This document shows, piece after piece, positions 1 to 10,507 of a stretch of DNA of 12,025 nt (positions are counted from its first letter, which is position 1; the number at the start of each line of letters is the position of its first letter). The DNA is from Clostridia bacterium. Lineage in GTDB: Bacteria; Bacillota; Clostridia; Oscillospirales; Butyricicoccaceae. The notes under the pieces are model-generated. The model did no database searches. It was not told where the DNA came from and saw only the letters and a program-made list of their open reading frames with translations. The DNA lies in assembly GCA_017407765.1 (NCBI GenBank), contig JAFQVZ010000297.1, positions 1 to 12,025 on the forward strand, in the 5' to 3' direction. Position numbers and translations under genes: made by a program.

Positions 1-80
1 CTTTCTTCTGCCTTTTTGGCGTCATTCCAGCGGGATCCCCACAAAATCTGCGATTTTGCGAGGGCCCCTTGAAATTGATA

Positions 81-130
81 GATTTGCCGCAAATAAACTT
101 ACGGCAAATCGTGCGCCGCAAAAAGCGGCG
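81..130. repeat. Paired inverted repeats inside repeat unit
   Basis: GATTTGCCG at 81-89 is the exact reverse complement of CGGCAAATC at 102-110 (12-nt loop). CGCCGC at 114-119 pairs with GCGGCG at 125-130 across five A residues. The next copy keeps the first hairpin exactly (263-271 with 284-292), but its second stem has one mismatch. A third short hairpin, CAAAATC/GATTTTG with a 3-nt loop, lies at 42-58 and recurs at 224-240. No U-tract follows in either direction, so these are not convincing terminators. Confidence 0.8.
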
Positions 131-157
131 GGAATGGACCGCACTATGTATAGGTTG

Positions 158-215
158 TTATACGTTGTGCTTAACTCTGTCTCTTTCCTCTGCCTTCTTG
201 GCGTCGTTCCAGCGG
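158..215 (-). pseudogene. Duplicated 3' tail of the NrdD-like gene (repeat copy 2)
   Basis: Read on the minus strand, this segment encodes the same C-terminal residues as the intact gene at 340-600, from Arg69-Trp70 to the final RVKHNV and TAA (158-160). It differs by three silent changes (AAT/AAC, GTC/GTT and CAT/CAC). It has no start codon or ribosome binding site; immediately upstream on that strand is the GGGATCCC part of the non-coding repeat. Positions 1-33 hold the matching start of another tail copy, also with only silent changes. These are tail fragments, not genes. Confidence 0.85.
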
Positions 216-339
216 GATCCCCACAAAATCTGCGATTTTGCGAGGGCCCCTTAAAAATGATAGATTTGCCGCAAATAAACTTACGGCAAATCACGCGCAG
301 CAAAAAGCGGCGGGAACGGACCGCACTATGTATAGGTTG

Positions 340-600
340 TTATACGTTATGCTTGACTCTGTCTCTTTCCTCTGCCTTCTTGGCGTCATTCCAGCGGTCC
401 ATTGTACCTACAAGGTATCCGGTGATGCGGCGGATACGCTCAAAGGGAACAGGCGCAAGTGTATAGTTGAGATCTACATACTCACCGTCAATGGTGATGG
501 TAAGCTCGTCGACCTTCTGATGATTCTTGTCCTGAATATAATCGATATAAGCCTGAACTTCCTGCTGCGACATCTGGCCGCCCTGCACATTTATGGTCAT
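340..600 (-). CDS. Small stand-alone NrdD C-terminal-like (glycyl-radical segment) protein
   Basis: This 86-residue protein resembles the extreme C-terminus of anaerobic (class III) ribonucleoside-triphosphate reductase NrdD, where a glycine in an R-[VIT]-[CT]-G-Y-L motif carries the catalytic radical. Here the motif is RITGYL at residues 58-63, with Gly61 as the candidate radical site, followed by a charged tail ending in RVKHNV. The large NrdD barrel and the zinc-binding cysteines are absent (no Cys at all). The start is the ATG at 598-600, preceded by GGAGGT at 613-608; the frame also opens further upstream, but without a ribosome site and through the regulatory region. Two NrdR-box-like palindromes just upstream independently support a ribonucleotide-reduction role. 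It could be a spare radical domain by analogy with YfiD for pyruvate formate-lyase, or a short paralogue of other function. The last 18 codons lie within the tandem repeat. Confidence 0.7.
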   Translation of the reverse strand: MTINVQGGQMSQQEVQAYIDYIQDKNHQKVDELTITIDGEYVDLNYTLAPVPFERIRRITGYLVGTMDRWNDAKKAEERDRVKHNV

Positions 601-10321: not shown

Positions 10322-10350
10322 TTGACAGTCTGATTGACTTTTGATATAAT
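10322..10350 (+). promoter_or_regulatory. Full-consensus sigma-A promoter for rplJ-rplL
   Basis: TTGACA (10322-10327), a 17-bp spacer and TATAAT (10345-10350) match the housekeeping consensus at all 12 positions. A TGn extension (10342-10344) is also present. It gives rplJ-rplL a transcription unit separate from rplK-rplA, starting near 10357 at the L10 leader. Confidence 0.88.
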
Positions 10351-10356
10351 ATCTTT

Positions 10357-10480
10357 GTTGTCCAAAGACCGCAGGAGAAAGTAAACGGCTTGAGCCGTCC
10401 TGCCGAGGATGCGCACAAGCTACATTTATGTGTATTTTCGTGCCTCTGCGTCTTTGGATGCAGAGGCACTTTTTCTTTGC
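10357..10480 (+). ncRNA. Ribosomal protein L10 leader RNA
   Basis: The segment matches the L10 leader in layout and in its conserved core. A first strand, GACCGCAGGAGAAAG (from 10367), is answered by CGTCCTGCCGAGGATG (10397-10412), forming the GCAGG/CCTGC stem flanked by a purine-rich loop where the L10(L12)4 complex binds. A terminator hairpin ends the leader. In characterised Gram-positive leaders, excess L10-L12 complex favours termination. Boundaries are approximate. Confidence 0.85.
10440..10478 (+). terminator. Attenuator of the L10 leader
   Basis: GTGCCTCTGC (10440-10449) pairs perfectly with GCAGAGGCAC (10460-10469), followed by TTTTTCTTT. It sits 14 nt upstream of the rplJ ribosome site, where conditional termination would lower rplJ-rplL expression. 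Confidence 0.9.
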
Positions 10481-10507
10481 AAAATCTACACGGAGGTGAA
10501 AACCAGA

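Follow-up and report, generated by a model that had tools for sequence, protein, structure and literature searches.

A dispersed hairpin element of Clostridia that is flanked by copies of gene 3' ends and can carry an arm complementary to its insertion junction

The window, by which we mean the whole stretch of 12,025 nucleotides analysed here, is the complete contig C165 of a draft genome of a Clostridia bacterium (G000; 1.76 Mb in 378 contigs, 83% complete). Contigs are given C numbers, loci L numbers, genomes G numbers and genera g numbers, the genus of the window being g1. At its left end, a small gene on the minus strand is followed by further copies of its own 3' end (X), separated by hairpin DNA (E). 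The features of this region, and the corresponding element core on a second contig, are as follows.

340-600, minus strand: small gene for an NrdD-tail protein, 86 aa plus stop, last 58 bp duplicated; orthologues in the 7 genomes of the genus
340-397, minus strand: X copy 1 (X1), in frame, the gene end with 18 codons plus stop
216-339, minus strand: E copy 1, 124 bp of hairpin DNA; conserved core 218-316 (70.2 bits, model R1)
158-215, minus strand: X copy 2 (X2); codon differences from copy 1 are synonymous
34-157, minus strand: E copy 2; conserved core 36-134 (74.6 bits, model R1)
1-33, minus strand: X copy 3, truncated by the start of C165
394-403, minus strand: P, the target sequence AATGGACCGC across the insertion junction (398/397), read from the sequence
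133-142, minus strand: P' in E copy 2, GCGGTCCATT, the exact reverse complement of P, read from the sequence
315-324, minus strand: P' in E copy 1, GCGGTCCGTT, which departs from the complement of P at one position; exact match over at most 7 nt
3473-3571 of L013 (contig C101), minus strand: E core

The tandem array of 182-bp units that the initial annotation had placed at positions 1-397 was borne out. Tandem Repeats Finder reported a period of 182 with 2.2 copies and 94% matches, and a repeat search found 1-182 and 183-364 to be 94% alike, with a third copy of the tail (33 nt) at 365-397. The make-up of the unit, a 58-bp tail of the NrdD-like gene (18 codons and the stop) plus 124 bp of hairpin DNA, was likewise as annotated, and so was the junction, which falls between bases 398 and 397, after coding nucleotide 203 and inside codon 68. 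Because the window begins at the first base of C165, the array has at least 2.2 copies. The predicted fold of the 218-nt stretch 183-400 on the minus strand, comprising one unit and the next tail, was better than that of 200 out of 200 shuffled versions (z -3.57).

The last 31-34 residues of the 86-aa protein matched the C-terminus of NrdD (Pfam PF13597, 32.9 bits), and NCBIfam models of NrdD matched it far below their whole-protein cut-offs. It shares RRITGYLVGTMDRW with the C-terminus of a full-length NrdD encoded in the same genome (L018, contig C142). By analogy with YfiD/GrcA, the protein possibly serves NrdD as a separate glycyl-radical "spare part", which is our assumption. Near-full-length matches to the protein were present in 13 genomes (g1, g9, g15). 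Elsewhere in the window, a ribosomal protein L10 leader (Rfam RF00557, 51.9 bits, cut-off 44) lies at 10344-10484 on the plus strand, before an L10-like ORF.

The other end of the array was found on contig C101 (L013), which shares the codons of C165 for 16 bases past the junction before X, E and X. Beyond the last X, the contig continues with a terminator-like hairpin and long ORFs, which gives no support to the idea that the array might be the edge of a larger element lying to the left. Combined, the two contigs give the order gene-(X-E)n-X-terminator, and since the last X is not followed by E, the array is not a simple duplication of X plus E. A single unit is present on C101, against two or more on C165, which may reflect either variation in copy number within the population that was sampled or a break of the assembly graph at this place.

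A search of the contigs of the same genome detected E-like DNA on many further contigs. At seven places (C165/C101, C184, C44, C27, C56, C262 and C263), E followed a different gene and was in turn followed by a copy of the 3' end of that gene. The initial annotation had proposed a non-autonomous cassette that sits at a gene 3' end and keeps the frame, and this part holds in a wider form, as E is dispersed and is placed likewise at other genes. The accompanying proposal of repeated site-specific recombination found no support: no candidate recombinase came to light, and different loci repeat the tails of different genes. Two genes of G000, at L193 and L195, are related and have a similar E at the same point (112/128 positions); they were either duplicated together with E or hit twice.

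In order to describe E as a family, 32 cores were aligned, and the resulting consensus with two hairpins was used to build a covariance model. In this alignment, 15 of the 22 consensus pairs had changed on both sides in some sequence. Consensus pairing was possible in 95.2% of cells, compared with 78.8% in shuffled sequences (none of 500 reached the same level) and 33-61% in slid versions. Members are about 100-125 bp long, non-coding, and present in many dispersed copies. Rfam returned no match to E at an E-value of 1 or below for the six sources tested, and the possibility that E belongs to a known RNA family was dropped.

All seven genomes of the genus carried E according to the covariance model, with 34, 23, 66, 30, 4, 17 and 82 copies; the genome richest in E was G006 (82 copies, 98% complete). 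With stricter filters, E was detected in 37 of 87 genomes of the family. The matches were concentrated in g1, g7, g9, g10, g12, g13 and g15, where 29 of 30 genomes had between 1 and 47 copies (22 of 23 in the six genera other than g1); among the remaining 57 family genomes, 8 had a single match. A simpler one-hairpin pattern, run over GTDB genomes, returned 83 stretches, many of them by chance, and the members came from metagenome-assembled genomes of uncultured gut and rumen Clostridia/Oscillospiraceae. Twelve of the pattern matches from outside the Clostridia were scored with the model, and none of these twelve exceeded 17.7 bits. In IMG/VR, the pattern matched 15 stretches, of which L322 scored 97.3 bits and L315 22.1 bits; the other 13 scored 13.9 bits or less or not at all and look like chance matches. 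The full E of L322 (8040-8137, minus strand) lies on a contig classed as viral, IMGVR_UViG_3300021311_000133, and possible explanations are carriage by a phage or contamination with host DNA.

The flanks of E were compared for 60 fetched regions, mostly the best-scoring places of five genomes, together with the earlier loci. This sample contained 99 E matches in 81 sources. After removal of 8 partial matches, 91 E remained, from 81 loci that in part represent units of one array, and these were scored for direct repeats. The scores fell into two groups, with 60 E at 45 or above, 27 at 28 or below, 4 unscorable, and none between. In 56 of the 91, the downstream copy of the repeat began -1 to +7 nt from the end of E. 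The direct repeats at the ends of E were 30-128 nt long and nearly always represented the 3' end of the adjacent gene: an ORF of at least 90 codons ended in or beside the upstream repeat in most of 55 listed cases, and in L215 it was a tRNA-Val gene whose 3' end, together with a terminator-like hairpin, was repeated. Ten of the 56 repeats continued into a neighbouring E and thus belonged to arrays, and two of these ten, L017 and L030, were E-E tandems without a gene tail. In a control on the first set, repeats were found in 48 of 75 comparisons with own flanks, but in only 5 of 885 with foreign flanks. The tail of one gene in G002 (L198/L113, C20) contains two different E, whose junctions are separated by 24 nt, and each has a tail copy of its own.

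Of a further 46 E, taken from G004, G006 and other genera, 15 passed the same threshold, one of which repeats a locus of the first set. The passes included E from G060, G063, G065, G066, G070, G073, G075, G076, G077 and G078, the repeat in G077 being identical over 68 of 68 nt. In G006, 11 of the 13 E examined had no tail copy at the threshold; the other two were an E-E tandem and a repeat scoring 44. The E loci of this genome (CANSNO01 loci among L050-L121) frequently had an extra 5' hairpin before E, of the AAGTTGTGC..GCACAACTT type. E of G006 may possibly represent an inactive or differently inserting lineage.

E follows genes in a preferred orientation. Among 41 repeat loci with enough flanking sequence, a sense gene lay upstream in 37 (14 of which also had a convergent gene), two were antisense-only and were second units of arrays, and two were neither. 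For 24 E without an end-adjacent repeat, the corresponding numbers were 16 sense upstream (5 convergent), 5 antisense-only and 3 neither.

The copies of the tail have evolved under coding constraint. In a comparison of 680 codons from 39 loci with distinct tails, 146 of the 176 differences between the upstream and the downstream tail fell on third codon positions (83%), 16 on first and 14 on second positions, and the differing codons were synonymous in 134 and non-synonymous in 21 cases. If the downstream tail drifted as non-coding DNA, we would expect roughly half of the differences at third positions. The excess therefore indicates that both copies of X evolved as coding sequence, a feature that, like the arm described below, is new relative to the initial annotation. 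Also the further tails of the window array, read from the sequence, differ synonymously only. We read this as two alleles, joined by recombination between strains, that would constitute the two tails; alternatively, the downstream tail may still be in coding use through loss or excision of E.

Similarity between the tails ended within -3 to +6 nt of the stop codon in 26 of 36 non-array loci, before it in 6, and beyond it in 4. A cut at the stop codon was considered as the cause of these ends. We now think it more probable that selection and exchange keep only the coding part of the tails alike and that the remainder decays, but some loci with few synonymous changes also have an X that ends at the stop.

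Related genomes provided the empty sites that the initial annotation had proposed to look for. Orthologues of the gene in the window were present in 7 of 7 genomes of the genus, and in five of these (G001, G003, G004, G005 and G006) the gene had no E and a terminator-like hairpin followed the stop; six more orthologues in g9 and g15 also had no E. G002 had one E, located at the same nucleotide of the gene as in the window. The two E shared 88 of 106 aligned positions, and their hairpin sequences were different. Insertion at the same point in two species was also seen at other genes (L025/L212, L028/L207 and L093/L222).

The second feature absent from the initial annotation is an arm, located on the 5' side of E, with complementarity to gene sequence at and near the junction (P' and P). 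In the first 19 loci, an exact complement of at least 10 nt was present in 13, compared with 0.6% of 342 cross-locus pairs and none of 95 shifted windows, and in a larger set it was present in 22 of 54 loci (0.38 expected). In order to avoid bias in the choice of region, we also scanned 49 loci for complements of at least 9 nt, over a region that began 150 nt before the junction and extended to the end of X. Such a complement was found in 25 of 49 loci and contained the junction in 20 of them, and the expectation from 2346 cross-locus pairs was 1.73 complements, 0.23 of them containing the junction. The complements that contain the junction are 9-14 nt long and span from about -6..+1 to +4..+13. 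We count against a guiding function of the arm that 24 of the 49 loci have no complement of at least 9 nt, and that the longest complement misses the junction in 5 of 25; loci without an arm may have decayed or may have been made otherwise. At sites where the two tails differ, P' matches X1 in 15 and X2 in 6 cases, a count that leans to X1 because P was defined on X1.

What can be read directly from the sequences is a dispersed, covarying family with tail copies, sense bias, empty sites, shared insertion points and a P' across the junction in 20 of 49 loci. We consider it most likely, with moderate confidence, that E is a mobile, non-autonomous hairpin element that is placed by base pairing of its 5' arm. 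E would be copied by something acting in trans and would settle near gene 3' ends in sense orientation, giving rise to the order gene-X-E-X-terminator. Because the tail of the gene (about 30-110 nt) is present on both sides of E, neither the frame nor the stop is disrupted, and in some cases the terminator is preserved as well. P' would serve as a guide, in the form of either RNA or single-stranded DNA. Its pairing with the coding strand at the junction would bring the 3' end of E (GGGGA) to this point, and a subsequent staggered event or re-copying would duplicate the tail. The sense bias, together with the antisense relation of P' to the mRNA-like strand, suggests either that transcription opens the target or that an RNA step is involved. 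Once present, the X-E unit could be exchanged between strains through homologous recombination within the gene. The tail of the donor would then end up upstream and that of the recipient downstream, which would explain why tail differences are mostly synonymous. Arrays such as that of the window could result from repeated insertion at the regenerated target or from unequal exchange between copies of X.

Several observations weigh against placement by the arm. The 35 of 91 E without an end-adjacent repeat are counted against a guided mobile element. The target stays intact upstream of an inserted E, and the guide would therefore still match its own locus. Persistence of the full target upstream of E also weakens the idea of a homing nuclease with E as its guide RNA. 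How each site came by a guide arm of its own is left unexplained by a guided element.

A more far-reaching form of this explanation, which we hold only tentatively, is that E represents the smallest kind of programmable element. It would consist of some 100 nt of structured RNA or single-stranded DNA, and its 5' arm, complementary to the coding strand of the target, would guide insertion at gene 3' ends. The mover would be a host or trans-acting enzyme and not a known reverse transcriptase, IS110, TnpB or RAYT, and the element would be tolerated because the tail is re-supplied. Tests of these four single families identified no enzyme for E, and since single families were searched in draft genomes, absence is weak evidence where genomes are incomplete. 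IS110 transposases (PF02371) were found in 6 of 23 genomes and in none of the seven genomes of g1, and proteins of the TnpB type (PF07282) in 6 of 23, with one match below the cut-off (G001) in g1; neither family tracked E, and both were dropped as candidates.

A different account, which appears unlikely, is that E is a REP/REPIN-like sequence that is mobilised as single-stranded DNA by a RAYT (TnpA_REP, an HUH/Y1 transposase), with the tail copies as by-products of repair. RAYT-like proteins do occur in E carriers, namely in G000, G001, G002, G003, in all three genomes of g12, and in G064 and G066 (g9); the calls are based on matches to NCBIfam NF047646 below its cut-off and to Pfam PF01797 at or just above its cut-off. 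In addition, the available portion of one study proposes that REPs are non-autonomous elements moved by TnpA_REP (PMC8266576). However, the E-carrying genomes G004, G005, G006, G063 and G065, those of g7, g10 and g13, and the carriers in g15 gave no RAYT match, whereas four g2 genomes (G008, G010, G011 and G023) have a RAYT, yet no E or one weak match. With one query protein in draft genomes, RAYT was found in 13 of 87 family genomes and overlapped poorly with E. Few RAYT genes have E within the flanks fetched for them (G003 C236, L258/L277, and a 37-bit match in G064 C42, L249/L275), whereas REPINs adjoin RAYT genes according to the accessible part of PMC3116915, in which tail duplication goes unmentioned. 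The association being partial and non-exclusive, RAYT/Y1 was not retained as the enzyme of E. Two RAYT-like proteins of 163-167 aa, encoded at L248:961-1464 (minus strand) and L250:1333-1824 (plus strand), scored below the NF047646 cut-off, and their fetched flanks contained no E.

We regard it as rather improbable that E moves by target-primed reverse transcription, in which an RNA copy of the element would be converted into DNA at the target and a second nick 30-110 nt downstream would produce the tail copy as a long target-site duplication. Such a process would fit the order gene-X-E-X, the fixed 3' end of E (GGGGA) beside X, the variable length of X, the covarying RNA-like structure and the sense bias. 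It would also fit the end of X homology at a T-tract in L207, L028, L215, L199, L227 and L232, where the T-tracts mostly belong to terminator-like hairpins, resembling an RNA 3' end; the last two of these loci are near-copies of each other within one genome. Against it, no match to RVT_1 was found in G000, G002, G003, G004, G006, G059, G060, G064, G067, G070, G072 and G076, and of these carriers G006, G059, G060, G067, G072 and G076 are each at least 97% complete. RVT_1 was detected in 6 of 21 genomes tested and does not track E; by eye, the reverse transcriptase ORFs of G001, G005 and G085 are unlike each other, one of them resembling that of a diversity-generating retroelement (DGR), and the fetched flanks of the reverse transcriptase genes contained no E. 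As it is not common to the carriers, a reverse transcriptase of the RVT_1 family was rejected as the enzyme of E.

There is also little reason to believe that E is a functional 3'-UTR structure, acting in mRNA stability or 3'-end protection, with P-P' as a selected cis stem and the tail copies as old duplications. The sense orientation and the strong conservation of structure agree with this, as does the preference of P' for X1 over X2, subject to the bias of that count towards X1. It leaves unexplained, however, why a complement should span the junction, why the tail is copied, why a tRNA gene is affected, and why E is present or absent at the same gene in sister species. A local tandem duplication or an assembly artefact limited to the window locus is highly improbable: the array of the window taken alone resembles one, and the unit numbers of C101 and C165 conflict, but the same architecture recurs in separate genome records, several genera and many genes, the 124-bp part is not confined to the window or to one copy in all relatives, and the simple duplication considered in the initial annotation accounts neither for the dispersed copies nor for the sites that are empty in sister species nor for the distal X without E.

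If E is placed by its arm, a tiny element without an enzyme would avoid the damage to host genes that limits insertions in compact genomes, by landing at 3' ends and re-supplying the tail. It would keep an antisense record of its own target, so that the guide hypothesis is testable with filled and empty alleles, and the enzyme behind E would represent a new guided DNA-insertion activity. Even with P' as a by-product, the loci would form a natural series of tail duplications for studying gain and loss of small bacterial repeats.

In the literature covered, to which most subscription papers do not belong, we found no description of such an element, and comparison is therefore with systems that resemble E in part. 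ICEs at gene 3' ends have direct repeats of 12-54 bp, some comprising only the exact gene end, according to the portion of PMC4701971 available. Like these ICEs and IMEs, E has the tail of its target on both sides and leaves the gene intact. In contrast to them, E measures about 124 bp and comes without an integrase, which no ORF of the 182-bp unit could encode; it has many unrelated targets per genome and an antisense copy of the junction. With REP/REPIN sequences, as described in the accessible parts of PMC3116915 and PMC8266576, E shares its short, palindromic, non-autonomous nature and its many copies. It differs in having several different hairpins in a row, a duplication of the gene tail, a complement of the junction and an inconsistent association with RAYT. 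A GTAG/CGTC tag adjoining the palindrome is among the features by which REP/REPIN-RAYT systems are recognised (tag names from the title of PMC3733652). Prokaryotic MITEs are shorter than 500 bp, have no transposase of their own and are flanked by direct repeats from target duplication (PMC10969869, in the section accessible), and E resembles them in size and in lacking a transposase, while its direct repeats may correspond to such a target duplication. In possible contrast to MITEs, inspection showed no terminal inverted repeat shared by the E copies, no parent transposon was encountered, and the repeated tail is 30-110 nt long. The conserved parts of E are separate hairpins, and by inspection the terminal complement P' differs between sites.

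The internal guide sequence of group I introns and the bridge RNA of IS110 elements are internal stretches complementary to the target across the insertion point. The complement that E holds across its insertion point may be analogous to these, although E has no recognised ribozyme core, no IS110 transposase was found in g1, and E has a long copy of a tail in addition. The single parts of E resemble known systems, and what we have not met before is the combination of these features together with an antisense record of the junction.
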